Of a DNA stretch of 48,078 nt, positions 5,251 to 20,550 are shown in pieces. Positions within the stretch are counted from its first letter, which is position 1; every line of letters starts with the position of its first letter. Origin of the DNA: Eubacteriaceae bacterium (GTDB lineage Bacteria; Bacillota; Clostridia; Eubacteriales; Eubacteriaceae); assembly GCA_030156895.1 (NCBI GenBank), contig JASGLP010000020.1, positions 1-48,078 of the forward strand. Direction: 5' to 3'. The translations under genes and the position numbers were made by a program. A model generated the notes under the pieces. The model was not told where the DNA came from. It ran no database searches and saw nothing but the letters and a program-made list of their open reading frames with translations.

Positions 5251-5357
5251 GATAAAGACCAAGTTAATATTGAATACCTGAGCACCGACAATTGGCTTTT
5301 TTTGTTGCACCCAAGCGCGTAGACTACGAAATCCAATTGGTCGGTGCGGTTTTTTTG
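5251..5357 (+). repeat. mobile hairpin element, copy 1 (short form)
   Basis: Outer stem GCACCGACAATTGG (5282-5295) pairs with CCAATTGGTCGGTGC (5333-5347) with one bulged base. The left leader (AAGACCAAGTTAAT) matches copies 2 and 3. The middle is shorter than in those copies and keeps ACTACGAAAT before the right arm. A T-run (5350-5356) follows, so it could also end rightward transcription between the convergent SEC-C and patatin genes. I see no flanking duplication for this copy. Confidence 0.8.
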
Positions 5358-5359
5358 TC

Positions 5360-6694
5360 CTATTTCTCATTTGCAATCTGCCTGATACAGGTATGAATAT
5401 TTAGGAGCGCGATGACGGCAAGGATCATTTCCGGGGTAAAGAGGTGGGTGAACCAGGCCGTTCTTTCAACCGGCAGGTCGTCTCGTAAAACCAGAAAGAC
5501 AAAATACAGGACAGAGAAATGGGTAAAGGTCTGATTAAGGCCCGGCATGGTTAGGTGATTAATCATTCCCGGTGTCTTTAAGAGATCGCGGTCTTCATTG
5601 AGAAAAGCATGAAACTGCTTAAGAATTAACAGAATCAGGGCATCCGCAGAATAAGCCTTTAATTTTTCGATGCCCAGCACCTTGGCTGTGATTTCCAGCA
5701 TCGATGGTGCCAGCTGAAAATTTTTAAACTCGGTTCTTTTATGCAGTTCACCCAGTTTTTTAAGGATGGCGTTCTGATCATCAGTGGGGGGGAGCGATAA
5801 AAGGGCGTGCATTTTATTGTTTAGCCGGACAGACGGTAAGGATTGACCAATATGCTTGCTAAAGCAATCAAAGACGGGACTTTTCCGGGACAGATCCAGA
5901 TAATAGCTTTTTCCGGATAAAACATCCAGCGCTTTTAAAGTTTCCAGATGTCCCAGTTCCATGTTGGAATGGATATTTACTTCATTAAAGTCAAGCATAC
6001 CGCCGCGAATCTGCTTGCTGCTGATATTGATTTGCTCAATTTTAGGATCAGATACCGAGCGCTTAATTCCCACAACCGGTAATTCTACGGAAATGATTTT
6101 TTTAAAGCCCTGTTCGACCATAAAATTGACCGGAACATTATCAAAGAAACCGCCGTCCAGATAGATATTGCCATCAATTTCCTGCTTTTGAAAAACTGGT
6201 AGTGCCGAACTGGCCAGTAAGTAGTCATGAAGCTGGCCATCTGGGATATCCTCAATCATCAGCTGGCGCGGGGTTAGATTGGTCAGATCAACTGTCACTA
6301 AACCAAAGCGGATCGGTGAGTTTCTGACAGCTTCTTCGCTGATCAGGTTTTTAAGACTGTCCCGCAGTGGGCTGATATTGAGGCCGCCATCAAAAAGCAG
6401 ATTTAAAAAGCCCGAGCGAAAAGCTTCAAAATTTCCATGGGACCATTTTTCCAGGTATTTCTGATTGACCTGATTTTTCAAATCAAGCACTTGTGAAAGA
6501 GTCAGGTTGGACCAGAATGAATAAGCCAGATCGAATTGATTCTGAACAATGATTGCGGCATTAAGGGCACCCACCGAGGTGCCGATAACGGCACCAATTT
6601 CGATGTGCTGTTCCCGTAGTGCCTGCCAGACGCCGATTTCAAAAGCGCCCTTGGCACCGCCGCCGCCTAAAACCAGACCATAGGGATTATTCAT
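5360..6694 (-). CDS. patatin-like phospholipase
   Basis: 444 residues. The N-terminal patatin domain has the oxyanion loop GGGGAKG (10-16), the nucleophile elbow GTSVG (38-42, Ser40) and the catalytic Asp in DGG (180-182), which together form the Ser-Asp dyad of cytosolic or membrane-associated lipid acyl hydrolases (RssA/YjjU group). The C-terminal ~180 residues are helical and unassigned. No signal peptide is present. ATG 6694 follows GAGAGG, 11 bases after the stop of the DUF4190-type membrane gene, so it is co-transcribed with it, within a leftward envelope and lipid group that includes lgt. Confidence 0.9.
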   Translation of the reverse strand: MNNPYGLVLGGGGAKGAFEIGVWQALREQHIEIGAVIGTSVGALNAAIIVQNQFDLAYSFWSNLTLSQVLDLKNQVNQKYLEKWSHGNFEAFRSGFLNLLFDGGLNISPLRDSLKNLISEEAVRNSPIRFGLVTVDLTNLTPRQLMIEDIPDGQLHDYLLASSALPVFQKQEIDGNIYLDGGFFDNVPVNFMVEQGFKKIISVELPVVGIKRSVSDPKIEQINISSKQIRGGMLDFNEVNIHSNMELGHLETLKALDVLSGKSYYLDLSRKSPVFDCFSKHIGQSLPSVRLNNKMHALLSLPPTDDQNAILKKLGELHKRTEFKNFQLAPSMLEITAKVLGIEKLKAYSADALILLILKQFHAFLNEDRDLLKTPGMINHLTMPGLNQTFTHFSVLYFVFLVLRDDLPVERTAWFTHLFTPEMILAVIALLNIHTCIRQIANEK

Positions 6695-6705
6695 GGGAAA
6701 ACCTC

Positions 6706-7599
6706 TCAGTACAGATAAGTGAAAACATCGCTGGAGAAATCATTGGCTAACTCGCTAAGCAGGCCGGTGGTACCCACCCCGATACAGGCGACACAGGCCA
6801 TCACGACGATTACTGACAGAACCAGGCCGACAATTGAACAGATCAGGCCGGCAAGTGCCATGGCGTGAGAGGCTCCGGTTTCTTTTAATTCTTTCATGGC
6901 GATGATGGCAAAAATAAGACCGATAGCGCCAGTAAAAAAACCACTGCCCATCAGCGGAATTGAGCTGACAATCGAAACAATCCCCAGGCTTAAAGCGATG
7001 ATGGATTTATCATCAATATTACTGTAAATAGTTTGAACCGCTGACTGGCGTTCATCATTAGCCGGATGATTTCTGATTGCAAAGATAAAAATCGGGGCTA
7101 AAAAAGGGAAAATGATACTCAAAACCAGAAAAACGACGCGATGGTTTTTGGCGTAAATGCTGTATAACCAGTATAAAGCCGTATAGTAATAAACAGCAAA
7201 AGCGATGGACAAAAGAATCGATAAAATGGCGCCCAGATAAGGGATCAGGGTGAGGATACCGCTGGCCAGAGCTAGAGCGAAAGATGAAAGGGTCAAAAAA
7301 ATCTTGGCATAGGGGATATGCAGGGACCCGAAAGTGACCTCATCATTGATCAGATCACCCAGAATATAATTGCTGGCAATCGGAATCCAGGCCAGCCAGG
7401 CGTGATCAATCTGGCGGTTTTTCGCCATTTTATAAAGGCCGATAGAAGAAAAAACATACGAAATAATGCCGATGATCAGACTAATTACAATCACTGCCGT
7501 GAGGATGGATAAAAAGACCGGAAGGAATTCCAGCATAAATTCCGAATCTGAACTGTGGGGCATGGAATTGCCCATTATTGCGTTGTACTCATACATCAT
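6706..7599 (-). CDS. multi-span membrane protein with C-terminal DUF4190-like part
   Basis: 297 residues with about seven membrane spans. The N-terminal ~170 residues, with a first span near 25-50 and the soluble sentence KNRQIDHAWLAWIPIASNYI, resemble the DUF5684 class of Firmicute membrane proteins. Residues ~195-285 resemble DUF4190, with paired glycine-rich helices (ALSLGIVSIVSSIPLMG and MALAGLICSIVG). The last span, VVMACVACIGVG, is close to the end of the neighbouring DUF4190 gene (VCVACVGILG). ATG 7599 follows AGGAGG. Function is unknown; it shares a transcript with the patatin gene. Confidence 0.7.
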   Translation of the reverse strand: MMYEYNAIMGNSMPHSSDSEFMLEFLPVFLSILTAVIVISLIIGIISYVFSSIGLYKMAKNRQIDHAWLAWIPIASNYILGDLINDEVTFGSLHIPYAKIFLTLSSFALALASGILTLIPYLGAILSILLSIAFAVYYYTALYWLYSIYAKNHRVVFLVLSIIFPFLAPIFIFAIRNHPANDERQSAVQTIYSNIDDKSIIALSLGIVSIVSSIPLMGSGFFTGAIGLIFAIIAMKELKETGASHAMALAGLICSIVGLVLSVIVVMACVACIGVGTTGLLSELANDFSSDVFTYLY

Positions 7600-7648
7600 A
7601 AGACTGCCTCCTAGTAAATAATAATACTATTAGTATACCCTTAAAAGT

Positions 7649-8419
7649 TTAAGACTTTCGCCAATTTTTATAAAGTTTCTGAGGGATATTTTTAAAAAAC
7701 AGGATGCCGGTAAGGATGACCAGCAGGCTCAGCCATTGAGAGGTGGAGAACCATAAAAAACTGCCGCGGGGATCGCCTCTTAAAAATTCGATCAGAAAGC
7801 GGAAAATGCCATAACTGATCAGATAGAGACCAGTGGTGTGCCCCGGTTGTCGGGAATTTTTGAGCTGGAGCAGCAATAGACCGCTGAGGATAAATAAAAA
7901 CAGAGATTCACTTAGCTGAGTGGGAAAAAGGGCAACACCGGATGGGGGATAAGCGCCCTTGGGGTATGTGACAGAACAAAAGCCATCATAAGAGATGCCG
8001 TAGCAGCAGCCGTTAAAAAAACAGCCGATTCGGCCAAAAGCTTGCGCCAGCGATAGACAAGGAACCGCCGCATCAAAAAAAAGGATGGGATTGAGATTAT
8101 AGATTCGGGTGTAAAAATAACCACCCAGGACGCCGCCCAGCAAGCCGCCAAAAAAAACAGATCCTCCTGATAAAAAAGAAATCAGAGTGTTGAGTGGATC
8201 GTGGATCAGGTCGCTAAGATTGACAAAGAGATACAAGGCTTTGGCCCCGATGATGCCGCCGATGATGCCAAATAAACCGAAAAAAACGATGTCCATGGTC
8301 AGAATTGCATATTTTCTGGCGGTAAGGGTTGATAACAGAAAAGCGGCAGTGACGCCAATTAGAAAGAGAATCCCGAAAGTTGGGATCGGCCGATTAAAAA
8401 TTTCGATAACTGGGTACAT
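7649..8419 (-). CDS. lgt: prolipoprotein diacylglyceryl transferase
   Basis: Lgt moves diacylglyceryl from phosphatidylglycerol to the lipobox cysteine of prelipoproteins, the first step of lipoprotein maturation in the membrane. 256 residues with seven spans. The Lgt signature is present as AQAFGRIGCFFNGCCYG, containing the essential Arg of the GRxGCFxNGC motif, and LRGDPRG lies near the C-terminus. The start chosen is ATG 8419 (MYPVIEIFNRPIP), preceded by AAAGGAG; an ATG 18 bases earlier lacks a ribosome site. The lipoprotein PrsA encoded at 18825 is a probable substrate. Confidence 0.95.
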   Translation of the reverse strand: MYPVIEIFNRPIPTFGILFLIGVTAAFLLSTLTARKYAILTMDIVFFGLFGIIGGIIGAKALYLFVNLSDLIHDPLNTLISFLSGGSVFFGGLLGGVLGGYFYTRIYNLNPILFFDAAVPCLSLAQAFGRIGCFFNGCCYGISYDGFCSVTYPKGAYPPSGVALFPTQLSESLFLFILSGLLLLQLKNSRQPGHTTGLYLISYGIFRFLIEFLRGDPRGSFLWFSTSQWLSLLVILTGILFFKNIPQKLYKNWRKS

Positions 8420-8442
8420 AATTCTCCTTTGCGTCATTGTGT

Positions 8443-8499
8443 TAAAAAAAAGAAGCCGCGGATGTCAGTCATCATGAAATGATTGACATTGCAGGCTTC
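8443..8499 (-). terminator. terminator downstream of the DUF4190 gene
   Basis: A long imperfect hairpin has outer arms GAAGCC (8452-8457)/GGCTTC and inner ATGTCAGTCAT/ATGATTGACAT. On the minus strand an eight-T run (8444-8451) follows it. It separates this gene from lgt. Confidence 0.8.
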
Positions 8500-8824
8500 A
8501 GCATAAATTGATAGTCTTATCCAAGATAAATAATGCCATCAATCTGCCGCGGGCAGAAAGCTGTGGCGGCAAGTTCTACATATAGGACATTGTGCCAAGG
8601 ATACCAACACAGGCGACACAAACTAAAAATCCCATTAAGCTCAGCGCCATACCGATTATGGACAAAACGAGTCCGGCAGTTGAAATGCCATCAGGTTTGA
8701 ATCCTTCATTTTGACCAGCTTTTCTGATTTGAATGCCAAAAACCATCCCAACAATGCCACAAACAACTCCGATGAGTGCAAAGTTTCCGGTCCAAAAAGT
8801 TAAAATAGAAATAATTCCCAAAAC

Positions 8825-8841
8825 CAGCGATGCAATCGCTT
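8825..8841. repeat. 17-bp target duplication, left copy
   Basis: CAGCGATGCAATCGCTT, identical to 9026-9042. It contains the palindrome AGCGAT-GCA-ATCGCT and encodes AIASL of the DUF4190 protein. Confidence 0.9.
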
Positions 8842-9025
8842 CGGACTAAAGACAAAGTTAATTTTATCTACCTGAGCACCGACAATTGGCTTTTCAGTTG
8901 TCCGCCTCGGGGCGAACAGTTGCTAGAAAACGTCAATAATTAGCGATTTCAAATTGAGCAACTGTACGAATCCGCGCGCGGACTACGAAATCCAATTGGT
9001 CGGTGCGGGGTTTGTCTACGCACTG
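8842..9025 (+). repeat. mobile hairpin element, copy 2 (full form, 184 bp)
   Basis: Nested stems: GCACCGACAATTGG (8876-8889) with CCAATTGGTCGGTGC (8992-9006); GTCCGC (8900-8905) with GCGGAC (8978-8983); ACAGTTGC (8916-8923) with GCAACTGT (8958-8965). Near the ends lie AGACAAA on the left and TTTGTCT on the right as a short inverted repeat. An exact 17-bp direct duplication flanks it. No protein is encoded, so it would need a transposase from elsewhere. Confidence 0.9.
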
Positions 9026-9042
9026 CAGCGATGCAATCGCTT
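9026..9042. repeat. 17-bp target duplication, right copy
   Basis: Second copy of CAGCGATGCAATCGCTT, in frame with the true start of the interrupted gene at 9061. Confidence 0.9.
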
Positions 9043-9065
9043 TTCCACTGTATTTTTCCATGATG

Positions 9066-9109
9066 CCCTCCACTTAGTTTTATGCATTCAGGATACAGCT
9101 AAGTGGCGG
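9066..9109 (-). promoter_or_regulatory. hairpin covering the ribosome site of the interrupted DUF4190 gene
   Basis: CCACTTAG (9070-9077) pairs with CTAAGTGG (9099-9106), and flanking CCC/GGG extends the stem. In the leftward RNA the ribosome site GGAGGG is in one arm, so the structure could limit translation. It may also act as a weak terminator after murC, although no T-run follows. Confidence 0.4.
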
Positions 9110-9114
9110 GAAAG

Positions 9115-10533
9115 TCAAGCCTGATATTTTTCTTTCAAGTGATCAACCAGGTCAAAGGCGACCCGGTTAATGGTCTGGGAACCGGCTACCAGCACCAGAT
9201 CGCCCGGTTTTAAGTGGTCGCTTAGATGCTTGATGATATCCGAAAATTCAGAGATTGTAACCGTCTCGATGCCGTATTTTTGAACAATGGCTTTTTGCAG
9301 ATCCTCCGAATAAATATTCCAGTCATTTCCTTCGCGGTCGGAATAAATATCATTGAGGATAACATAGTCGGCTTTGGCAAAGGCATCAACAAATTCGTCA
9401 AAGAAAAAGTAGGTGCGTGAATAAGTGTGGGGCTGGAAAACAACCCAGAGTTTTTCGTGCTCGTAATTCAAGGAAGCGTCAACCACCACTTTCAGTTCGG
9501 TGGGATGGTGGGCGTAATCTTCGTAAACGTTGATGCCATTGACCTCGCCGCGGAATTCAAAACGACGTTTGGCGCCACTGAAACGGCTTAGCGCATCAAT
9601 TGAAGTGGCTACCGGAATGCCCAGAAAATCACCACAGATAATAGCCGATAAAGCGTTTAAAACATTATGCTGGCCGGGGACGATCAGTTTGTAATGGCCA
9701 TAAAAGGTCTGGCCCTTGTAGACATCGAATTCCGGTTTTCCGACTTGGTCATAAATGATGTTTCCGGCATGCCAGTCGTTTTTTTCATCGATTCCGTAAG
9801 TGACAACTGGTGCGGATAAGCCTTTAACAGTTTCCAGAACAACTGGTGAATCACCATAAGCGATCATCAGGCCGTCGGCTGGCAGAATTTGCCCGAATTT
9901 ATGAAAGGATTCTTTGATCTGTTCAATCCCGCCTTTAAAATAATCCAGATGATCTTCTTCAATATTGGTAATGATGCCAATGGAATGAGTGGTTTTTAAA
10001 AAGCTGTCCACATATTCGCAGGCTTCAACGACGAAATAGTCTTTACCGTCAATTAGGGCATTACCGCCAAATTCATCGAGTTTACCGCCGATGCTTAAGC
10101 TTGGGTGCAGATTAGCATGGAGCAGCAGGGTAGCAACCATTGAAGAGGTTGTTGTTTTACCGTGGGTGCCGGAGACGGCGATTGTTTTATTGAAAATATG
10201 TGAAAAAAGCCCCAGGAAAGCGGATCGTTCAATTTTAGGAAGTCCCAGATCGGTCGCTTTAACCATGTCAGGGTTGTCATCATGAATCGCAGCCGAGTAG
10301 ACCACGCAGTCCGTATCAGTCGGAATATTATTATAATCATGTCCAATATGGACGGTAACACCTAAACTTTGCAGTTTTTCTGTGTAGCCGGAAGCAACCA
10401 TATCGGATCCTTCCACAGAGAAACCTTCATGCAGTGACATGGTGGCCAAGCCGCTCATGCTGCTGCCGCCAATACCGATAAAGAACAGTTTATGAACAGG
10501 ACGATTACATGTTTTTTCGAGTTGTGCTTTCAA
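9115..10533 (-). CDS. murC: UDP-N-acetylmuramate--L-alanine ligase
   Basis: MurC adds L-alanine to UDP-MurNAc with ATP, the first amino-acid step of peptidoglycan precursor synthesis in the cytosol. 472 residues, normal length. The N-terminal nucleotide-sugar binding loop FIGIGGSSMSGLA (18-30), the Mur ligase P-loop SGTHGKTTTSS (121-131) and the C-terminal DYAHHPTEL are all present. The start is TTG at 10533, with AAGGAG nine bases before it; no in-frame ATG of similar quality is nearby. It is divergent from purR. Confidence 0.96.
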   Translation of the reverse strand: MKAQLEKTCNRPVHKLFFIGIGGSSMSGLATMSLHEGFSVEGSDMVASGYTEKLQSLGVTVHIGHDYNNIPTDTDCVVYSAAIHDDNPDMVKATDLGLPKIERSAFLGLFSHIFNKTIAVSGTHGKTTTSSMVATLLLHANLHPSLSIGGKLDEFGGNALIDGKDYFVVEACEYVDSFLKTTHSIGIITNIEEDHLDYFKGGIEQIKESFHKFGQILPADGLMIAYGDSPVVLETVKGLSAPVVTYGIDEKNDWHAGNIIYDQVGKPEFDVYKGQTFYGHYKLIVPGQHNVLNALSAIICGDFLGIPVATSIDALSRFSGAKRRFEFRGEVNGINVYEDYAHHPTELKVVVDASLNYEHEKLWVVFQPHTYSRTYFFFDEFVDAFAKADYVILNDIYSDREGNDWNIYSEDLQKAIVQKYGIETVTISEFSDIIKHLSDHLKPGDLVLVAGSQTINRVAFDLVDHLKEKYQA

Positions 10534-10828
10534 ATTGATAAGCTCCTTATAACTTAAAATTTTCTTAATTTAATGTGTTTCATAAAAAGAGAAAGCTCTG
10601 TTTGAACAGAGAACTGAAAATATTTTTTCGAAAAACTTGTTGGATAAAGTGTGCTTTTATAAATTTCGCCTAAGAATGGGAAATCTTTATCTAAAAGTTC
10701 TGTTGAGAATTATATCATAAGAGTTAAAGTGTCGTAAAGTTTAAAAATCACTTGCTTTTTTTAAAAAACACGAATAAAATTATGATATAAGAAAAAAATG
10801 TTCGGATTTTTTCCGCTTGTGGTGAATA
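10534..10828. other. murC-purR divergent intergenic region
   Basis: 295 bp, AT-rich. The hairpin CTCTGTT-tga-AACAGAG lies near 10590-10607; on the minus strand it is followed by a T-rich tract ~50 bases before murC, so it could be a leader attenuator. A possible purR promoter is TTGCTT near 10752 with a TATGAT/ATATAAG region near 10782. I see no T-box or other known riboswitch. Confidence 0.35.
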
Positions 10829-11644
10829 ATGAAAAAAAATGAGAGAATCAGTGTTATAACAAAAATATTAGCCGATCATCCTAATCAGGTTTTTAGCTAC
10901 AATTATTTTGCCAATCTCCTGGATGCTGGGAAATCCAGTGTCTGCGAGGATATTGCCATTGTCAGAGAAGCCTTTTTAAAGCTTGAACAGGGCCGGGTGC
11001 ATACATTCTCCGGAGCCTCTGGTGGCGTGATCTATTATCCGGAAGTATCTGCGCAGGATGAAAAGCGGATGCTTTTAGAAATTGCCGATTTGTTGATGCA
11101 GCCGCAACGACAGATTCATGGTGGTTTTGTTTACTACAGCGATATTTTATCCAATCCCCGTTATTCCCAAAATATTGGCCGGATCATTGCGTCGAAATAT
11201 CTCGAAGCGGGTCTGGATTATGTTGTCACCACAGAAACGAAAGGGATTCCCGCCGCCATGGAAGCCGCGCATTATTTGAACGTGCCGGTGGTTTTAATTA
11301 GACGGTCCAATCGGGTAACAGAGGGTTCGACCATTAGCGTAAACTACATTTCCGGCTCCTCCAATAAAATTTCAACCATGTATTTAAGCCGACGAATTGA
11401 CTTGCATCAAAAGAAGGTGCTGATTATCGACGATTTCATGAAAGGTGGCGGAACAGCCAAAGGCATGGTCAGTCTAATGGAGGAAGTGGGTGCTGAGGTT
11501 CAGGATGTTTCGGTCATTTTTGCCACCCGCCATCCACTTGAAAAGCTGGTAGCCATTTTCAATCCCCTTTTAATAATGGATGACAGCCAAATTGGGGAGG
11601 GAAAACTGACCGTCGAAATTAACCAAGCTTCCCGTCACGACTAA
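10829..11644 (+). CDS. purR: purine operon repressor PurR (Bacillus type)
   Basis: This is the Gram-positive PurR, unrelated to the LacI-family one: an N-terminal winged helix (~1-72) fused to a PRT-fold effector domain. The PRPP-binding loop VLIIDDFMKGGGTAKG is at 197-212. It binds PurBox operators of purine genes, and PRPP releases it. 271 residues, as in B. subtilis. ATG 10829 has only a weak ribosome site (GTGGTG). It heads the conserved purR-spoVG-glmU-prs block, which fits nucleotide control of PRPP synthesis. Confidence 0.93.
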   Translation: MKKNERISVITKILADHPNQVFSYNYFANLLDAGKSSVCEDIAIVREAFLKLEQGRVHTFSGASGGVIYYPEVSAQDEKRMLLEIADLLMQPQRQIHGGFVYYSDILSNPRYSQNIGRIIASKYLEAGLDYVVTTETKGIPAAMEAAHYLNVPVVLIRRSNRVTEGSTISVNYISGSSNKISTMYLSRRIDLHQKKVLIIDDFMKGGGTAKGMVSLMEEVGAEVQDVSVIFATRHPLEKLVAIFNPLLIMDDSQIGEGKLTVEINQASRHD

Positions 11645-11792
11645 GAAATTGTTCCGGATTTGTAACTGATTCCCCATTCAGCGTAAAATCTGCAAAAAAC
11701 ATCAGGTTTTTGTTTCAATATTCTATAAATTATGGTAGGATATAGATAGAATAGGACATGTGACTTTATTTCAATAGGGGAGGCTTAAGCAG

Positions 11793-12113
11793 ATGGAAAT
11801 TACGGACGTAAGAGTACGGAAAACGTATCCAGAGGGAAAAATGAGAGCAATTGTCTCGGTAACGTTTGATGATCAGTTCGTTGTACATGACATCAAAGTT
11901 ATTGAAGGACAGAGTGGTTTTTTTATTGCAATGCCCAGTCGAAAAACACCGGATGGTGAATTCAAGGATATTGCCCATCCCATCAACATGGGTACCCGTC
12001 GACAAATGCAGGAAAGCGTACTCAAAGCATATGATCTTGCCGTTGAGCAGGAAGAAAGCAATAGCATTGAAGAAGCAGATGTTGAACTGGAAGTGGACTA
12101 CGAAGAAGAATAG
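11793..12113 (+). CDS. spoVG: SpoVG family RNA/DNA-binding regulator
   Basis: A 106-residue SpoVG protein beginning [20 protein letters not shown], with the conserved core [21 protein letters not shown] and an acidic tail. The family binds nucleic acid and is found in both spore formers and non-spore formers, where it acts as a general regulator. ATG 11793 follows GGGGAGG. A possible promoter, TTTCAA-17-TAGGAT, lies just upstream (~11714-11742). A strong terminator separates it from glmU. Confidence 0.93.
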
Positions 12114-12135
12114 ACCACATAATCGATACTTTATA

Positions 12136-12161
12136 AAGGGGAATCCGCTTCCCCTTTTTTT
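12136..12161 (+). terminator. spoVG terminator
   Basis: Perfect 8-bp stem AAGGGGAA/TTCCCCTT with a five-base loop, running into seven Ts. Confidence 0.9.
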
Positions 12162-12193
12162 GTCGTTTATGATTAAATAAAGGAAGATCAGGT

Positions 12194-13558
12194 ATGAAAA
12201 ATACAAAGGTATTAATACTGGCAGCAGGTCAGGGGACACGGATGCGTTCCAAAAGAGCCAAGGTTTTACATCCGCTTTGCGGAAAAAAAATTCTTGACTA
12301 CGTTATTGATAATGCTGAGGCTGCGGGCGCTGCGGAAATTGGCGTAATTGTTGGTTATCAGGCGGAACAGGTTCAGGCCAGCCTGACGCCGGAAATAAAG
12401 ATTTACCGGCAGCAAGAGCAGCTGGGCACGGCCCATGCCGTGATGATGGCCTTGCCGTTTTTTGAAAACTTTTCCGGCAGTCTGATGGTGCTGGTGGGGG
12501 ATGCACCCTTTACCCGGCGGGAAACCCTTAGAGCCATGCTTGAAACACACGAAAAAAATGGCTATGGGGTCACGGTTTTAACAGCTGAATTTAAAGATCC
12601 TTTCGGATATGGCCGAATGATCAAAAACGCAGCAGGGGAACTTTTGGCGATTATTGAAGAAAAAGATGCAGATGCGACCCAGAAACTGGTTAAAGAAATA
12701 AATTCTGGCATGTATTGTTTTGATGCTCAGGCCCTGGCAGCGGCATTAAAAGAAGTTAATACCGATAACGCTGCCGGAGAATACTATCTCACGGACGTTA
12801 TTGAAATCATCAGGAAAACGGGGCTTAAGGCAGGGACATATGTGACAGATGATCCCGACGATATCGCGGCCATTAATTCAAAACAACAGCTGGCTCAAGC
12901 AGAAACGCTGATGCGGGGACGAATTAACGCGGCCCTGATGGATGAAGGCGCGATTATTACTGATCCGGCGACCACTTATATCGGGCCGGATGTGAAAATT
13001 GCCGCCGATGCCGAGATTTTACCGGGTACGATCCTGGAAGGTCAAACGGTTATAGGTCAGGACTCGGTAATCGGTCCTTATTCAAGATTGAAAGACGCTG
13101 TGATCGGGGAACGGGTTACGATCGAAAATTCAACTGTACTGGAAAGCTCGGTTGGCCACGATACAAAAGTTGGTCCCTATGCTTATATCCGGCCGGGTAG
13201 CGTCATTGGTCAAGGCTGTAAAGTGGGCGATTTTGTGGAAGTTAAAAATTCCAATATGGGTGATCATTCAAAGGCTTCTCATTTAACCTATATTGGTGAT
13301 GGGGATGTCGGTCAGGGCGTCAACCTTGGCTGTGGGACGGTTTTTGTTAATTATGACGGCAAAAACAAGTATCGGACGGTGGTTGAAGATCAGGCTTTTG
13401 TGGGTTGCAACACCAACCTGATTGCTCCAGTGACAGTCAAAAAAGGCGCCTATATTGCCGCCGGGTCAACCATTACCGATGAAGTGCCGGAGGATTCTCT
13501 GGCCATTGCCAGATGCCGGCAGGTCAATAAAGAAGGCTATCTCAAAAAGAAAAAATAA
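12194..13558 (+). CDS. glmU: bifunctional GlcNAc-1-P uridyltransferase / GlcN-1-P acetyltransferase
   Basis: GlmU acetylates glucosamine-1-phosphate and then uridylates it to UDP-GlcNAc, the entry sugar for peptidoglycan. 454 residues. The N-terminal pyrophosphorylase signature LAAGQGTRMRSKRAKVLHPL is at 9-28. The C-terminal left-handed beta-helix of hexapeptide repeats starts near 250 and includes the acetyltransferase region with KNSNMG and GCGTVFVNYDG. It is downstream of spoVG and upstream of prs, the usual order. Confidence 0.96.
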   Translation: MKNTKVLILAAGQGTRMRSKRAKVLHPLCGKKILDYVIDNAEAAGAAEIGVIVGYQAEQVQASLTPEIKIYRQQEQLGTAHAVMMALPFFENFSGSLMVLVGDAPFTRRETLRAMLETHEKNGYGVTVLTAEFKDPFGYGRMIKNAAGELLAIIEEKDADATQKLVKEINSGMYCFDAQALAAALKEVNTDNAAGEYYLTDVIEIIRKTGLKAGTYVTDDPDDIAAINSKQQLAQAETLMRGRINAALMDEGAIITDPATTYIGPDVKIAADAEILPGTILEGQTVIGQDSVIGPYSRLKDAVIGERVTIENSTVLESSVGHDTKVGPYAYIRPGSVIGQGCKVGDFVEVKNSNMGDHSKASHLTYIGDGDVGQGVNLGCGTVFVNYDGKNKYRTVVEDQAFVGCNTNLIAPVTVKKGAYIAAGSTITDEVPEDSLAIARCRQVNKEGYLKKKK

Positions 13559-13632
13559 GGCAAATATATTTGCGGTTAAAATGTTTGTAAAACACATCAA
13601 TATATAAAGATAAAAGAAGAGGTAAGAAAATT

Positions 13633-14592
13633 ATGGATGGAAAGTACAGCGGTATTAAGATTATTTCAGGGAATTCCAACAAGGCCTTGGCCAAAGAAAT
13701 TGCGGATTACCTGGAAGTGCAGCTTTGTAATGCGGAAGTGGTTCATTTCAGTGACGGTGAAATTGGCGTTAATGTCTATGAATCTGTTCGCGGAGCGGAT
13801 GTTTTTGTCATTCAGTCAACGGGGACTCCGGTTAACGAAAATCTGATGGAGCTGTTGATTTTTATCGACTCGATGAAGCGTGCTTCAGCCGGACGTATCA
13901 ATGCGGTTATTCCTTATTACGGTTATGCGCGACAGGATCGTAAGGCTAAATCAAGAGATCCGATTACCGCTAAACTGGTTGCCAATCTCTTAACAACGGC
14001 TGGTGCTGACCGGGTTATCACCATGGATTTGCATTCGAATCAGATTCAGGGATTTTTTGACATTCCCCTGGATCATTTAACTGGTGGTGGTCTGATTACT
14101 GAGTATTACAAAGAAATGAAGCTTGAAAACATGGTTGTCGTTTCGCCGGATGCCGGTTCTGTTAAAAGATCCAGAAAACTGGCCAGAAGCCTGGACTGTT
14201 CTTTTGCCATTATCGATAAAGAACGACCAAAACCCAACGAAACAGCAGTCATGAATGTTATCGGTGATGTTAAAGGAAAAAACTGTATTCTGATTGATGA
14301 CATGATCGATACCGCTGGAACGATCACCACTGGGGCCAATGCCCTAATTGAAATGGGCGCTGAATCGGTTTACGCGGCCTGCAGTCACGGTGTGTTTTCC
14401 GGTCCTGCCATCGAAAGAATTCAAAATTCGGCGATTAAGGAACTGATTACTCTCAATACCCTGGTGATCCCCGAAGAAAAACAGATCGATAAAATTAAAA
14501 TTTTATCAACGGGTACTCTTTTTGGCCGCGCCATCGATTATGTCCATTTTGGCCGATCCCTCAGCAAGCTTTTTGTTGGCCGCTACGTCTAA
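13633..14592 (+). CDS. prs: ribose-phosphate pyrophosphokinase
   Basis: Prs makes PRPP from ribose-5-phosphate and ATP for nucleotide, His and NAD synthesis. 319 residues, class I length. The flexible-loop region [15 protein letters not shown], the [11 protein letters not shown] segment and the PRPP-binding loop [12 protein letters not shown] are present. ATG 13633 follows AGAGG. Its PRPP product is the effector of PurR encoded nearby and the substrate of Hpt at 27856. Confidence 0.96.
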
Positions 14593-14593
14593 G

Positions 14594-15163
14594 ATGCGCA
14601 TCATAGTTGGACTGGGCAATGTGGGTAAGGATTACGAGAATACCCGTCATAATATCGGATTTATGGTACTTGATGCTTATGCCCGAAAAAAAGGTCTGAA
14701 TATCACAAAAAAAGAACAGCATGGGCTGACGGCCAGTTTCTTTGAAAATGGGAATAAAGTGATGCTGGTCAAGCCCACCACCTACATGAACAATAGTGGT
14801 CTCTGTGTTTCGGGGCTGCTTGACTATTACGATATTGAACTTGAGGATCTTCTGGTGATTTACGATGATATTGATCTTTCTTTCGGTGATATCCGCATCC
14901 GAAAAAATGGCGGACCTGGTACCCACAATGGGATGCGATCAATTATTTCCAGTTTGGCCAGCAAAGATTTTGCCCGTGTTCGGATGGGTATCGGTTGTCC
15001 GAAAGAAGGTTTTGATCTAGTACATTTTGTCCTGGGACAGTTTTCCAAAGAGGAGCAGCCGGGGGTGGTGGATGCCATCGCCGAGGCTGTTCGGGGTATT
15101 GATATCTGGTTGGACCAGGGGATTGATATGGCCATGAATCAAATCAACCGGCGACCCAAATAA
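14594..15163 (+). CDS. pth: peptidyl-tRNA hydrolase
   Basis: Pth frees tRNA from peptidyl-tRNA that dropped off ribosomes. 190 residues. Conserved motifs: VGLGNVGKDYENTRHNIGF with the catalytic His, KPTTYMNNSG, the catalytic Asp in YDDIDL, and GGPGTHNGMRSI. The true start is ATG 14594, one base after the prs stop; the longer frame would overlap prs. Its TAA lies at the edge of a palindrome that is duplicated around hairpin element copy 4. Confidence 0.95.
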   Translation: MRIIVGLGNVGKDYENTRHNIGFMVLDAYARKKGLNITKKEQHGLTASFFENGNKVMLVKPTTYMNNSGLCVSGLLDYYDIELEDLLVIYDDIDLSFGDIRIRKNGGPGTHNGMRSIISSLASKDFARVRMGIGCPKEGFDLVHFVLGQFSKEEQPGVVDAIAEAVRGIDIWLDQGIDMAMNQINRRPK

Positions 15164-15184
15164 GCCTGGATGAGATCAGGGCTT
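15162..15184. repeat. palindrome flanking element copy 4, left
   Basis: A 23-bp imperfect palindrome starting AAGCCTGGAT. It matches 15270-15292 at 18 of 23 positions. Confidence 0.7.
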
Positions 15185-15268
15185 GGTCAGAAAATAAGGA
15201 TAAATTTAACGCCTGAGCATTGATAATTGTCTTTTTGAGTTGTCAGTCTTGGGGTTTGTCTACACACT
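15185..15268 (+). repeat. mobile hairpin element, copy 4 (degenerate, internally deleted)
   Basis: The leader (ATTTAACGCCTGAGCA) and the first half of the hairpin align with copies 2 and 3. The sequence then jumps at a GGGG run to the right end GGGGTTTGTCTACACAC, which matches copy 2. The inner loop and right arm are missing, consistent with recombination between two GGGG runs. Confidence 0.75.
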
Positions 15269-15269
15269 T

Positions 15270-15292
15270 AAGCCTGGATATAATCCGGGCTA
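15270..15292. repeat. palindrome flanking element copy 4, right
   Basis: 23-bp palindrome AAGCCTGGAT-ATA-ATCCGGGCTA, the probable second half of a diverged target duplication. Confidence 0.7.
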
Positions 15293-15320
15293 TTGCCATT
15301 ATGGTTTGGAAAGAGGAACG

Positions 15321-18300
15321 ATGAATCTTAGTAAAACGCAGACCTTTAAAAATATAATAAGGCAGTTCAAGCCGGATGAGCCGCTCAACTTAACCGGAAT
15401 GAACAAAGGGTTTAAGGCGGCTCTGGCGGCGGCTCTTCTAAAAGAGCAGAAGCAGATCTGTTATATTGCCATGAGTGATGCAGAAGCTTTAAAAATAGCA
15501 GCGGATTTAAAAAGCACCCTTGGCGATCAGGTGCTTTATTTTCCGATGGAGCCGATTCACGACTACTTTGCCGACGTCCATAGTCGAGACATCGCGAATC
15601 AGCGCCTGGCAGTCTTCAAAAAAATATTATCCGGTCAGTCCTGCCTGATAGTGATTGGGATTGAAGCGTTGTTTAAAAAGTTTCTGCCCAGACAAGCATT
15701 TGAAAAACTGCAAGTGTTTTTGCGCCTGGAACAGGAAATTGATCCCCAGGAGCTGATTAATACGCTTATTAAGCTTGGCTACGAACGGGATGTTCAGGTA
15801 GAAGCCCGGGGTCAGTTTGCACATCGCGGTGGCATTATTGATGTATTTGTGCCGGCCGAAGACCAGGCGTATCGTTTGGAATTTTTTGGTGAGTCAATCG
15901 AATCGATCCGGTCTTTCGATCCTGAGAGCCAACTTTCGGTTGAAAACCATGAAACCGTTACAATCACTGCTGCCAGGGAGGTGTTGCTGGCTGAAGATGA
16001 ACGGGAGGCGCTCTTTAAAAAGCTGAATAAAAAATATCGGGATGACGCGCTTTATCAGCCTCTTCTGGAACGCTTGTCTGAGGAAGGCTGCAATACCTGC
16101 GAAATTCTCTTTGCTTTGTCCAAATCGGAAGCGATTTTTTTCGATTATTTAAGCAATCCGCTTCTGATCTGGGACGAGCCGACTAAAATTAGACAGGTGG
16201 GGAACCAATATCTGGAAAAACTGGATCAGGATATCGAGAATCTTGGTACTGAGGGGATTTTATTTCCGGAAGAAAAAAACAAGTTTTTCAGACTGGCCAA
16301 GATTGAAAAAGAAGCAGCCCAGTATAGTGAGCTTAAATTTAATCTTTTTGGTTCGCGCAGCAAAAAAGGGACAAGCATTGAGATGAATGCGCTGGAGATT
16401 GAACCCTTTCTCGGCGCGATTCCGCGTTTCCTTGATTTTGTTGAGGACCGCTTAAAAAAAGAATACTATCTGGAGATTCATGTCCAGGATGAAACCGGTC
16501 GTAAACGGTTGGAGGAAATTCTTGTGCAGGCGGATATTCACCGTTTTACTAATACTTTTGATACAGGAATTCAGATTATTGATGGTGAAATAGCCGCCGG
16601 TTTTGAGCTGCCAACGGATCATTTTATCTGTCTTAACGAGCGGGAAATTATCCGTGACGGTTTTTCCCGAAAAAGAAGGCGGAAAAGAAAAGGTAAAAAA
16701 CTGGACTCTTTTACCCAGCTTAACCAGGGGGATTACGTTGTTCACGATATTCATGGGATCGGGGTTTATAAAGGAATTGAGCAGCTGCAAATCGATGAAA
16801 CCATTAAGGATCTGATGGTCATTGAGTACGCCAATGAAGCGAAGTTCTATTGTCCGGTGGATCAGATGGATGCGGTGCAGGTTTATGTAGGGACCGGCGA
16901 GAAAAAACCACGGATCAATCAGTTGGGCACTGCTGACTGGCATAAGTCAAAGGCTCGGGTTAAAGCGGCAGTTGAAGAAATGGCCGATGAACTGATTGAA
17001 CTTTATGCCAAGCGTCAACAACTCAGCGGCTACGCGTTTGGACCGGATTCTACCTTTCAAAAGGAATTTGAGGATGCTTTTCCCTATGAAGAAACCGGTG
17101 ATCAACTGCAGGCAGTGGAAGAGATCAAGGAAGATATGGAAAAAGCCAAGCCGATGGATCGTTTGCTTTGTGGAGATGTGGGTTACGGTAAAACTGAGGT
17201 TGCTTTGCGGGCGGTCTTTAAGGCCGTAATGGACGGCAAACAGGTGGCTTTTCTGGTGCCTACCACGATTCTGGCCCAGCAGCATTATCAGACAATCATC
17301 GAGCGATTTGAAAAATATCCGGTGCGGGTGGGTCTGCTGTCCCGTTTCAAGTCAAAAAGCGAACAGGAAAAAACCATGCGCGGCCTTTTAAGCGGCGAGG
17401 TGGATCTGGTTGTGGGAACCCACAGGCTGCTGTCAAAAGATGTGCGCTTCAAAGATCTGGGTCTATTGGTGATCGATGAGGAGCAGCGCTTTGGGGTAAC
17501 GCATAAAGAAAAAATCAAGCAGATGAAAGAGAATATAGATGTTCTGACCTTAAGTGCCACCCCCATTCCGCGAACGCTGCACATGTCGATGATTGGGGTG
17601 CGGGATATGAGTGTGATCGATGAGCCCCCGGAAGGCCGTCGCCCGGTTTTAACCTATGTGATGGAATACAATGATGCCTTAATTAAGGATGCCATTGAGC
17701 AGGAATTAAAGCGGCGGGGACAAATCTATTTTGTTCACAATCGGGTTCATGATATTTACGAGGTATCGGCGCGGTTAAGGGATTTGGTCCCAGGTTTGCG
17801 GCTGACCGTTGCTCATGGTCAGATGTCGGGGCCGGAACTGGAGGATATTATGATGGACTTTCTGGAATACCGCTATGATCTCCTGGTGACCACGACGATC
17901 ATCGAATCAGGTTTGGATATCAAGAATGCCAATACCTTAATTATTGACAATGGTGATCATATGGGGCTGTCCCAGCTCTATCAACTGCGGGGGCGGGTCG
18001 GCCGTTCCAATACTCAGGGCTATGCCTATGTGACCCACAAACAAAAAATGCTGTCAGAAGTTTCGGCTAAACGCCTGAAAGCGATCAAGGATTTTACCGC
18101 TTTTGGCTCAGGCTTTAAAATTGCCCTCCGGGATCTGGAGATTAGAGGTGCCGGCAATATTTTGGGGTCGGCACAGTCGGGTAATCTGGCCAGTATTGGA
18201 TATGAGCTTTATTGTCGGATTCTTGATGAAGCGGTTAATCTGCGATTGGGCAAAGCCTTGCCGGAACCGGTTCGGGATGTCATGATCAATCTCGATATTT

Positions 18301-18743
18301 CCAGTTACATTCCGGAAAGCTATATCCGCGATGAGGAACTTAAATATGACCTCTACAAAAAGCTTTCCTATATCAAAACCCGCGAAGATTACGATGAACT
18401 GGAGGATGAATTATTAGACCGTTTTGGTGCTATTCCTGATGGGGTCTATAATCTGATGTCACTGGCGATGATTAAATATCAGGCTAAAGTGCTTGGAATA
18501 ACCGAGCTTTCGCAACGAGGCAACAGCGTCAGTTTTGTTTTTGCAGCAGATGTTGTGTTGCCAATTCCTCAGCCGGAAGCGATGCCGATTTTTTCGGAAA
18601 GTTACAGTCTAAAATTTAATGCGGGGAAAAAGGATGAAATCAAGTGGCGGATTATTCTGAAAAAAGATACAGATCAGAAATATTTAAATAAGCTGAGCGA
18701 GTTTTTAAATCTGCTGGCAGCCCAAAAAATTAAGGAAAGTTAG
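15321..18743 (+). CDS. mfd: transcription-repair coupling factor
   Basis: Mfd pushes stalled RNA polymerase off DNA lesions and recruits UvrA. About 1140 residues: N-terminal UvrB-like domains, an RNA polymerase-interacting domain around residue 470 (YVVHDIHGIGVYKGIEQL), then an SF2 translocase with Walker A GDVGYGKTE (~618), DEEQ (~719), SATPIPRTLHMSM and the motif VI region QLYQLRGRVGRS. The start is ATG 15321 behind AAAGAGG; the open frame extends upstream into the repeat element but without a ribosome site. Position after pth is the conserved order. Confidence 0.95.
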   Translation: MNLSKTQTFKNIIRQFKPDEPLNLTGMNKGFKAALAAALLKEQKQICYIAMSDAEALKIAADLKSTLGDQVLYFPMEPIHDYFADVHSRDIANQRLAVFKKILSGQSCLIVIGIEALFKKFLPRQAFEKLQVFLRLEQEIDPQELINTLIKLGYERDVQVEARGQFAHRGGIIDVFVPAEDQAYRLEFFGESIESIRSFDPESQLSVENHETVTITAAREVLLAEDEREALFKKLNKKYRDDALYQPLLERLSEEGCNTCEILFALSKSEAIFFDYLSNPLLIWDEPTKIRQVGNQYLEKLDQDIENLGTEGILFPEEKNKFFRLAKIEKEAAQYSELKFNLFGSRSKKGTSIEMNALEIEPFLGAIPRFLDFVEDRLKKEYYLEIHVQDETGRKRLEEILVQADIHRFTNTFDTGIQIIDGEIAAGFELPTDHFICLNEREIIRDGFSRKRRRKRKGKKLDSFTQLNQGDYVVHDIHGIGVYKGIEQLQIDETIKDLMVIEYANEAKFYCPVDQMDAVQVYVGTGEKKPRINQLGTADWHKSKARVKAAVEEMADELIELYAKRQQLSGYAFGPDSTFQKEFEDAFPYEETGDQLQAVEEIKEDMEKAKPMDRLLCGDVGYGKTEVALRAVFKAVMDGKQVAFLVPTTILAQQHYQTIIERFEKYPVRVGLLSRFKSKSEQEKTMRGLLSGEVDLVVGTHRLLSKDVRFKDLGLLVIDEEQRFGVTHKEKIKQMKENIDVLTLSATPIPRTLHMSMIGVRDMSVIDEPPEGRRPVLTYVMEYNDALIKDAIEQELKRRGQIYFVHNRVHDIYEVSARLRDLVPGLRLTVAHGQMSGPELEDIMMDFLEYRYDLLVTTTIIESGLDIKNANTLIIDNGDHMGLSQLYQLRGRVGRSNTQGYAYVTHKQKMLSEVSAKRLKAIKDFTAFGSGFKIALRDLEIRGAGNILGSAQSGNLASIGYELYCRILDEAVNLRLGKALPEPVRDVMINLDISSYIPESYIRDEELKYDLYKKLSYIKTREDYDELEDELLDRFGAIPDGVYNLMSLAMIKYQAKVLGITELSQRGNSVSFVFAADVVLPIPQPEAMPIFSESYSLKFNAGKKDEIKWRIILKKDTDQKYLNKLSEFLNLLAAQKIKES

Positions 18744-18824
18744 GCGGCATCTGTGGTAGACTGGCTCAGGTATTTTTGAAATAAGACGGAAAAATCTGTC
18801 GAACAACATATGAAGGAGATTTAC

Positions 18825-20315
18825 ATGATAACAGTTAAAAAACGGGTTTTAACAGGATTCATTGTGGCGATTATGCTGACAGGAATGCTGTTTAGTGGAT
18901 GTAGTCTGGTGTCGGTGGATCCGGAAAAGGATCGCGCCCAGGTGATCGCCGAAATCGGCGATGAGACCATTCTCAAAGAAAGTTTCAACAATTACATGGC
19001 TTATTACTATATGTATTATAAAGCCAGCGGGATGACATTTCCCACCGGAGATGATTTAAACACCATGAAATCCGATTTGCTTGATGACCTGGTGCGGGTG
19101 AATGTTCTGACTATTCAGGCAAAGGCTGATGGGGTTGAACCGGCTGCCAGTTCAAGCGTGGATGTGGCTACGATGATCAGCTCTTTAAAAACCTCCTTGG
19201 GTGATGATGAATTTGCCAAGGTGATGAGTACCTACAATACAGATGAAGAATCCTTTACGGCATTTTTAACCGATCTGATGGACAAATACGGCTACGCAGA
19301 TGCCATGCAGTCAAAATTTGAAGAGGATCTGAAAGCTGATCCATCACAGGAATTAAGCACTGTCGTTGGAACGATCGACGGCGAGGATGTGACTAAAGAC
19401 CAGTATAACTACCAGCTGGCCAATCAGGAGCTGACCTACTACTATACAAACCAGTCAGCCATGCCAACTGATGATGACACCATGGCCACAACAAATGAGA
19501 CTATTTTCAATGATCTGGCTGAAAGACAAGTTCTTGCCGCTTATGCTGCCGAAAATGGGATTGAGGCAGATCAGCAGGATGTGACTGATTATGTATCGGC
19601 TCAGGACGCTTTTGTGGGTTATCTGTTTTCAGACGATGCGACCTTCCAGGAATATCTGGACTCTAAATATCTGACCATTGAACAGTGGGATGCCTTTGTG
19701 CAGGAAGACGGAACAGCCTCAGCGATTGCTTTGGCCATTCAGGATCAGATGAAGCAGGACGTTGAAATCAGTGATAAAGATATCGAGAGCTATTACGAAG
19801 ATAATAAAGATACTTATGACAGTGACACTGTTTCAGCCATGCATATCCTGGCCGATACTGAAGAGCAGGCACAGTCCATCTATGAAGAAGCTAAAAACAT
19901 TACAAACAAGGATGAGTTTCAAGCCTTAGTCGATAAATATCAGGGTCAGGATGGCATTCAGGAAGCGACCGATCTGGGCGCCTTTGATTATGACACGATG
20001 GTTGAACCTTTCTCGGAAGCGGCTTTCGCTGCGGATGTCAACACGGTAGTTGGACCGGTACAGACTGATTACGGCTATCATGTCATCTTTGTTTACGATA
20101 AACACACCGCTGAAATTCCATCTCTCGATGATAAACGCGACGAAATTAAAGAAACGCTGACTGAAAATGCGGTAACGGATAAATTTGATGCCTTGAAAGA
20201 AAGTCTGATGAAAAAAGTTAAAATTGAGATCAATGATATCCAGGATCCTTTTGACGCTTATGTTGAAGATCTGAAAACACAGATGAACGTGACGGTGTAC
20301 GATAATCGCATTTAA
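18825..20315 (+). CDS. PrsA-like lipoprotein peptidyl-prolyl isomerase
   Basis: An extracytoplasmic foldase, 496 residues. A lipoprotein signal peptide ends at FSG-Cys26. A SurA/PrsA-type N-terminal region follows, then a parvulin (PpiC) domain at roughly 330-425, with the family pattern from AMHILADTEEQA to GPVQTDYGYHVIFV. It is strongly acidic, typical of exported proteins. The start is ATG 18825 behind AAGGAG; the earlier ATG overlaps that site. Lgt encoded in this window would lipidate it. It occupies the place where spoVT sits in many spore formers. Confidence 0.88.
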   Translation: MITVKKRVLTGFIVAIMLTGMLFSGCSLVSVDPEKDRAQVIAEIGDETILKESFNNYMAYYYMYYKASGMTFPTGDDLNTMKSDLLDDLVRVNVLTIQAKADGVEPAASSSVDVATMISSLKTSLGDDEFAKVMSTYNTDEESFTAFLTDLMDKYGYADAMQSKFEEDLKADPSQELSTVVGTIDGEDVTKDQYNYQLANQELTYYYTNQSAMPTDDDTMATTNETIFNDLAERQVLAAYAAENGIEADQQDVTDYVSAQDAFVGYLFSDDATFQEYLDSKYLTIEQWDAFVQEDGTASAIALAIQDQMKQDVEISDKDIESYYEDNKDTYDSDTVSAMHILADTEEQAQSIYEEAKNITNKDEFQALVDKYQGQDGIQEATDLGAFDYDTMVEPFSEAAFAADVNTVVGPVQTDYGYHVIFVYDKHTAEIPSLDDKRDEIKETLTENAVTDKFDALKESLMKKVKIEINDIQDPFDAYVEDLKTQMNVTVYDNRI

Positions 20316-20321
20316 GAAAAT

Positions 20322-20344
20322 GAGACGCTGATTTTTAGTGCCTC
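20322..20344. repeat. hairpin left of element copy 3
   Basis: GAGACGCT-gattttt-AGTGCCTC, an imperfect stem-loop just after the PrsA stop. It shares CTGATTTT and GCCT with the hairpin on the other side of the element and may be a diverged duplication. Confidence 0.4.
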
Positions 20345-20349
20345 AGATA

Positions 20350-20525
20350 AAAGACAAAGTTAATTTTAACACCTGAGCACCGACAATTGGCTTTTCAGCT
20401 GTCTGCCTCGGGGCGAACAGTTGCTGGGAAATGCTGTTTTATTTGCACTTTCAAATGGGCAACTGTACGAATCCGCGCGCAGACTGCGAAATCCAATTGG
20501 ACGGTACTGCGTATATCTGCATACT
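20350..20525 (+). repeat. mobile hairpin element, copy 3 (full form)
   Basis: Same architecture as copy 2: GCACCGACAATTGG (20377-20390) with CCAATTGGACGGTAC (20493-20507); GTCTGC (20401-20406) with GCAGAC (20479-20484); ACAGTTGC (20417-20424) with GCAACTGT (20459-20466). In the second stem both partners differ from copy 2 so that a C-G pair becomes T-A and pairing is kept. Left AGACAAAG is intact; the right end is worn (TATATCT). Confidence 0.9.
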
Positions 20526-20550
20526 AAGGCTCTGATTTTATCAGAGCCTT
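20526..20550. repeat. hairpin right of element copy 3
   Basis: Perfect 11-bp palindrome AAGGCTCTGAT-TTT-ATCAGAGCCTT. There is no T-run on either strand, so it is not a typical terminator despite lying after prsA. Confidence 0.7.

Follow-up and report, generated by a model that had tools for sequence, protein, structure and literature searches.

Between positions 5251 and 20525 of the stretch analysed here (the window: 48,078 nucleotides, positions 1 to 48,078 of contig JASGLP010000020.1 of a Eubacteriaceae bacterium, assembly GCA_030156895.1), a short hairpin-forming sequence recurs four times, which raises the question of what this repeat is and how it reached its sites. A preliminary description of the window had taken it for a small non-autonomous mobile element or a mobile structured RNA. 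The first of these readings is borne out by copy number, fixed ends, target duplication, the empty sites of copy 2 and IS1182 transposons with matching ends. The genus of the hosts is Acetobacterium and, judging from the sequences, the repeat is very probably a miniature inverted-repeat transposable element (MITE) of this genus, moved in trans by a DDE transposase of the IS1182 family with duplication of a whole hairpin at the target.

Copy 2 (8842..9025, plus strand) is a complete element of 184 base pairs (bp), near the consensus, which cuts a DUF4190-type gene of the minus strand into a 5′ part (9026..9061, start codon at 9061) and a 3′ part (8576..8841). It is enclosed by a palindromic target duplication of 17 nucleotides (nt), CAGCGATGCAATCGCTT, the left repeat (8825..8841) being identical to the right one (9026..9042) at 17 of 17 positions. 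The protein of the split gene begins with MEKYSGKAIAS and resumes after copy 2 with AIASLVLGI. In all 16 genus genomes read at this site, the gene runs on without a break, and these represent empty sites; the two remaining genus genomes gave weaker, paralogue-like matches. Its orthologue in G009, a relative within the genus, was assigned to Pfam PF13828 (DUF4190), and a Pfam scan of the remnant open reading frame (ORF) itself gave no match. Since copy 2 lies in a coding region and possesses a palindromic duplication, the target is the palindrome as such and not termination.

The element is abundant in the window's own genome (G000, an assembly 85% complete). A 43-nt core pattern with at most three mismatches gave 99 matches there and its reversed control none, which excludes chance, and the four copies of the preliminary description were found where it had placed them. 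A blastn search of G000 with copy 2 recovered at least 40 copies of 89–100% identity. By the same kind of search the element was detected in 15 of the 19 same-genus genomes and in none of 42 others. A covariance model of the core, R1, matched all 19 genus genomes and two of 48 other genomes of the order, both from genus g9 of the same family; a short-core model, R2, matched five of 391 genomes sampled from the class, in two of 222 genera. The R1 and R2 genome counts were obtained with stricter filters, and the matches per genome are lower bounds. Most elements are 182–185 bp long in G000 (44 copies) and 176–178 bp in G009 (21 copies); the element has no coding capacity, in agreement with the earlier remark that no protein is encoded.

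When aligned outward, the copies of G000 (about 184 bp) have the fixed ends CAGACTGAAGACAAAG...TTTGTCTACACACTG, which form imperfect terminal inverted repeats: CAGACTGAAGACAAAG can be compared with CAGTGTGTAGACAAAC, the reverse complement of the 3′ end, and the end pair of the window species can also be written CAGACTGAAGACAAAG/CAGTGTGTAGACAAA. The G009 element ends in CAGACTGTCAAAAAAG...GTTTATCGACAACCTCA and is mostly located between duplicated hairpins. The leader AGACAAAG and the TTTGTCT end, which had been described as common to the four window copies, are both intact in copy 2 only.

Most G000 copies have one locus-specific palindrome on both sides. The flanks were examined for copies whose two ends had at most eight mismatches and whose flanks of 40 nt were complete, and not for all 99 matches; the sources were 50 stretches in G000 (the window and L002–L050, window copies 1 and 3 having dropped out) and 27 loci in G009, and the null was the 99th percentile of mismatched flank pairs. 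Direct repeats exceeded this null in 36 of 44 G000 copies and 18 of 21 G009 copies. Their median length is 22 nt in G000 and 23 nt in G009, with a median gap to the element of 0, and their median fold energies are −10.8 and −7.9 kcal/mol, respectively, random segments giving −0.5 and −0.6. Beyond the right repeat, 15 of 36 G000 copies have a T-rich tract (5.7% at random), and 23 of 36 have an A-rich tract ahead of the left one (6.9% at random), a pattern that is expected for intrinsic terminators. Gene context was taken from G000, no gene having been called left of the copies in any of 15 stretches of G009: among 42 copies with readable context, convergent genes surround 13, co-directional genes 19 and divergent genes two, and eight have a detectable gene on one side only, while one copy, counted separately, is inside an ORF. 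In one G009 locus (L083), the end of another element was observed directly before the left hairpin of the copy, as would be expected if a duplicated target was hit repeatedly.

An IS1182-type transposase is the likely mobiliser of this MITE, to go by the transposons detected in relatives. An intact IS1182 transposase of 474 amino acids is encoded in A. wieringae G012 (L120/L143), scoring 362.5 bits against NF033551 (cut-off 270); the L143 protein comprises the Pfam domains DUF772 and DDE_Tnp_1_6. The L143 transposon measures 1488 bp end to end, is bounded by CAGACTGTCAAAAAAG and its inverted partner, and sits between the duplicated hairpin GGAGCTGAAGAAATTCAGCTC. It also has terminator-like hairpins of its own just inside both ends (GTCAGC...GCTGACTTTTTTT and GAACCCGATTTTCAGTTTGAAAATCGGGTTC). 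A second IS1182 transposon, in A. wieringae G007, is likewise 1488 bp long and is flanked by a duplicated palindrome, but its gene contains a single in-frame stop. The target behaviour of L143 and L144 is the same as that of the MITE. A degenerate IS1182 element in G014 has a hairpin on each side, and an IS1182 remnant in G009 (L132) adjoins a CAGACTGTAGACAAA end. A transposase-bearing element with matching ends, of the kind for which the preliminary description had suggested a search, is represented by IS1182 transposons in relatives, none being intact in G000.

The habit extends to IS1182 relatives in other genera, mostly Clostridia. Among 80 of the 195 matched loci, 45 had both ends recognised and 43 of these had full flanks; long direct repeats (median 27 nt) were found in 29 of the 43, a floor because a wrong reading frame set the ends for a few (e.g., L147 and L152), and 28 of these 29 repeats fold to −3 kcal/mol or below. 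Hairpin duplication was inspected in 70 of the 80 loci. Several IS1182 copies (L167, L170, L175, L181 and L187) are flanked by two unlike hairpins, which suggests that copies of the insertion sequence (IS) have recombined or that insertion took place between neighbouring hairpins. As to the ends themselves, the 5′ end of the G009 MITE is identical at 16 of 16 positions to ISs of Chakrabartyella piscis (L153–L156 and L165), and the 5′ end of the window-type MITE agrees with the right end of L190 at 15 of 16; the window-type 3′ end reached 14 of 16 at best against IS1182 ends. Ends of the AAGACAAAG type are those that an IS1182 partner in the window species would carry.

Several observations weigh against the assignment to IS1182. 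No repeat above the threshold was found for eight of 44 G000 copies and three of 21 G009 copies; copy 4 of the window is included, its flank repeat falling under the 99% null threshold, and a hairpin repeat looked for in the flanks of copy 1 was not detected. The MITE and the ISs share their ends only, and no IS seen would give the MITE by a simple internal deletion; the gene of L190, which provides the best end match, carries a stop within its matched part, and the G009 3′ end (TGAGGTTGTC...), judged by look, differs from the IS consensus. In the assembly of G000, 85% complete, no intact IS1182-family gene was found, the two weak NF033551 matches both being below the cut-off, so that the partner has been lost, is unassembled or has diverged. 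Finally, transposition itself was not observed, and the ends, duplications and empty sites were read from sequence. The longer of the weak G000 matches, L051 (DUF772 and DDE_Tnp_1_2), was considered as the partner and rejected, having no MITE-like ends. The other IS1182 groups of the genus, with the ends AGGGGCTTTTGCAAAA, GGGACCTGTGAAAAAG, GAAACCTCCGAAAAA and AGGGGCTGTCGGGAAA, do not match the MITE ends either. In 20 stretches chosen from G000 and another 20 from G009, no full-length elements were seen behind core-less ends; these stretches were inspected for end and core patterns only and not by a gene search.

A mechanism can be proposed from what the sequences contain, namely the ends, the hairpin duplication, the target palindromes, the empty sites, the transposons of matching ends and target habit, and the covarying core; we infer the enzyme, the strand-transfer chemistry, the cruciform as substrate and the low fitness cost. 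The transposase would bind the terminal inverted repeats of about 16 bp and then excise or copy the element. The 3′ ends of the element would be joined to a target hairpin or cruciform at both 5′ feet, and gap repair would copy the whole hairpin onto both sides. Many strong genomic palindromes are intrinsic terminators, and hence copies would come to lie behind genes, enclosed by two terminators, an arrangement in which the insertion should do almost no harm. Palindromes within genes would be open to insertion as well, as in copy 2.

The centre of the element is a structured core. In copy 2 it occupies 8876..9006 on the plus strand (R1 match, 154.6 bits) and consists of an outer stem, a middle stem, a conserved internal loop, an inner stem and a variable apical loop. 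The RNA fold of copy 2 has an energy of −68.5 kcal/mol compared with a shuffle mean of −45.4 (z = −5.95), and the copy folds well on both strands. The stems had been reported for all four window copies; they are present in copies 2 and 4, copy 1 having no inner stem and copy 3 no closed stem. The compensatory change reported in the middle stem, GTCCGC/GCGGAC to GTCTGC/GCAGAC, is real and distinguishes copies 2 and 4, not copies 2 and 3; another covarying pair, T-A to C-G, adjoins the middle stem on its outer side. The single pair claimed was an understatement: in an alignment of 34 sequences from several species (A2), nine of 34 pairs are changed on both sides (shuffle mean 6.7; 11 of 500 shuffles as high). 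Paired cells in A2 amount to 96.8% against 90.7% in shuffles (0/500 as high), double-change cells to 77 against a mean of 27.2 (0/500), and the covariation score was reached by 0 of 500 shuffles; further pair types were not above shuffles (16 versus 17.1; 483/500). A short-core alignment of 23 sequences (A4) gave 95.0% paired cells versus 85.9% (0/500), eight of 20 pairs double-changed versus 4.5 and 44 such cells versus 13.0 (each 0/500), its further pair types being reached by 111 of 500 shuffles. The sequences of A2 and A4 were chosen by hand, and the shuffle controls leave the relatedness among copies in. Both of the outcomes on which the preliminary description had made its reading depend, more copies in the genome and relatives and covariation beyond one pair, were found.

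The internal loop GC(A/C)UC-NN-GGCG(A/G)AC...GU(A/C)CGA is almost invariant. Across the 37 of 44 G000 copies with a length of 180–186 nt, per-site diversity is 0.249 in the leader, 0.237 in the apical loop, 0.122–0.156 in the ends and 0.019–0.057 in the stems and motif, the core being 4–13 times less diverse than the adjacent leader and loop. It is this low diversity that places the fold probably under selection while the family spread. The covariation shows a constrained fold and not RNA action. In the wobble count, for which the first 90 of the 150 rows of alignment A3 were taken, 87 of them distinct, G-U cells outnumber A-C cells (64 versus 35), but by pairs the count is 12 versus 14, and one pair of doubtful register holds 15 of the 35 A-C cells.

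What the fold is for can be explained in two ways. It may be only an aid to transposition in cis, holding the ends together or extruding as a cruciform, with no cellular role; we give this a little over one chance in three. Constraint on the core among the copies of one genome is what selection of source copies would give, and the good fold of copy 2 on either strand fits as well. On the other hand, L143 and L144 have matching ends and, by eye, no such core between the ends and the gene. Fold-less derivatives of 82–85 nt exist, L034 even between a duplicated hairpin; later deletion can explain them.

Somewhat less probable is that the core itself is the real unit of selection, either as a functional structured RNA or as a DNA hairpin that serves the cell, the IS1182 ends being one of several vehicles. 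The covariation of the core and its diversity of 0.02–0.06 in stems and motif against 0.24–0.25 in leader and apical loop agree with it, and so does the presence of the motif in repeats with other ends. Conversely, the element has no clear orientation preference beside co-directional genes (11 versus 8 in G000), hairpin repeats enclose most of the examined copies, the wobble counts given above do not prove RNA, and three copies have the 82–85-nt form without the fold.

The repeats with other ends deserve description. In the two genomes of genus g9 (G026 and G032), the core motif is found in repeats ending in GGCGGT.../...ACCGCC, with no IS1182-like ends at the ten loci inspected by eye; one of these genomes has IS1182 fragments below the cut-off only, and the other has no match. 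Several short-core copies in Acetobacterium also lack IS1182-like ends by eye, some of them being in tandem, 147–159 nt apart. At L330:5380-8060 (G006:C11), five short-core repeats of one orientation lie in the gene gaps of a gene row which we take to be rapZ-yvcK-whiA; three of the five form a tandem series with a spacing of about 158 nt. The decay of older copies can explain part of the Acetobacterium copies that lack IS1182-like ends. The g9 repeats share ends of their own, and decayed Acetobacterium copies are unlikely in their case; hence the reading of a structured module that changes vehicles. That the core is a class of its own among mobile structured RNAs (or single-strand DNA hairpins), present so far in two genera of one family with at least two kinds of transposon ends, is a tentative suggestion that we consider doubtful on balance. 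If it were true, a selfish or useful RNA module would swap vehicles and spread into terminators and gene gaps. In two species (L281 and L319), the sequence downstream of a short-core copy is the same (...gtgatttactaaatct...), which suggests an old copy that was kept vertically.

Two further explanations have little left to stand on. A retro-element or group IIC-intron-like RNA reaching terminators via reverse transcription would account for the terminator preference and the folded core, but is very improbable given the DNA-level terminal inverted repeats, the occurrence in both orientations, the whole-hairpin duplication, the DDE transposons with matching ends and an Rfam search of the window in which tRNAs alone matched at the gathering score (best E of the permissive scan 0.081, far below that score), no search aimed at a reverse transcriptase having been made. 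Static REP/BIME-like repeats or natural tandem terminators formed without insertion would suit the position behind genes, but are just as hard to credit, being refuted for copy 2 by the gene intact in 16 relatives and contradicted by unrelated hairpins that are each duplicated around the same element.

Moved by an IS1182-type transposase, as we prefer to read it, the element has left three other copies in the window, all on the plus strand and in various states of decay. Copy 1 (5252..5364; 113 nt), with a SEC-C motif gene on one side and a patatin-like gene on the other, retains the outer stem and has lost its centre including the inner stem; R1 matches it at 5282–5347 with 46.6 bits, and a terminator scan over it found none. 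Copy 3 (15187..15268) is an 82-nt deletion form with its junction between two GGGG runs, and has no closed stem because the whole 3′ half of the hairpin is absent. It is located between genes for peptidyl-tRNA hydrolase and a TRCF-type (Mfd-like) helicase, and between 23-nt hairpin repeats (15161..15183 and 15269..15291; 19 of 23 positions identical). The three deletion forms of 82–85 nt (L033:2873-2957, L034:301-385 and window 15187-15268) have a common GGGG-to-GGGG junction and represent either a recurrent hairpin-promoted deletion or a mobile sub-form. Copy 4 (20345..20525), flanked by genes for a PPIC-type isomerase and a flippase-like protein, is near full length with a decayed 3′ end (R1, 130.7 bits); its core (20377..20507) carries the GTCTGC/GCAGAC form of the middle stem. 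Its right hairpin repeat is GGCTCTGATTTTATCAGAGCC (20527..20549) and the left one (20323..20343) is decayed, with a score reached by 1.35% of random pairs. No terminator-like site was found by scanning at copies 3 and 4, the total for the region being six versus 5.5 in shuffles.

Small GC-rich inserts around ACCCAAGGGGGCAGACCC / GGGTCTGCCCCCTAGGTCA break several element copies in G000 and G014 (L032:301-502, L036, L037, L064 and L068), and are possibly a second, nested mini-element. The window also contains, at 1844–1903, a tandem repeat of about five 12-nt units (ACCCGTTTTAGA).

Bacterial MITEs are short, gene-less elements with terminal inverted repeats and high copy numbers, thought to be moved in trans. 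The present element differs from them in its target duplication, a complete hairpin of variable length instead of a short fixed repeat, and in its covarying conserved core, whose motif is common to repeats with other ends. The bcr1 repeat of Bacillus cereus, ERIC and RUP/BOX are intergenic, mobile, folded repeats as well; the element is likened to them by their description and not by sequence, and has no Rfam match.

The closest system is the IS1182 family itself (NF033551; IS1272/TnSha1 of staphylococci), which, like the MITE, targets palindromes and terminators, and whose ends match in relatives. TnSha1/IS1272 is reported always to enter hairpins, with partial deletion; three of seven sites are predicted terminators, and hairpins A–E were confirmed as terminators by RNA-seq (PMC4923244). 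Some IS1182 members target palindromes, according to Siguier 2015 as cited in the same paper (PMC4923244), and IS1182 is listed among the families over-represented between convergent genes (PMC9208149). In another report, IS1272 replaces the hairpin and leaves no target duplication, and whole-hairpin duplication is drawn as a hypothetical ‘pathway b’ beside the hairpin-replacement data (PMC5678879). According to these papers, IS1272 deletes or replaces the hairpin without target duplication, whereas the MITE duplicates the whole hairpin and carries no gene.

Within the open-licence PMC literature, neither the MITE family nor data on whole-hairpin duplication were found. The copies described here provide genome-scale evidence for structure-guided transposition that duplicates an entire hairpin, which in the papers cited had been drawn as an alternative only for the IS1182 family. 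They would also explain how some 100 copies of a gene-less repeat, each lying between two identical terminators, could accumulate in a genome of 3 Mb without much cost. The conserved core is a defined, testable structured module, and the acetogens A. woodii and A. wieringae are cultivable hosts. The element can be named as a putatively IS1182-dependent MITE with whole-hairpin target duplication and a conserved core. Compared with the known systems, hairpin targeting by IS1182 is established and whole-hairpin duplication has been proposed as a model, while the MITE family and its modular core appear to be new.

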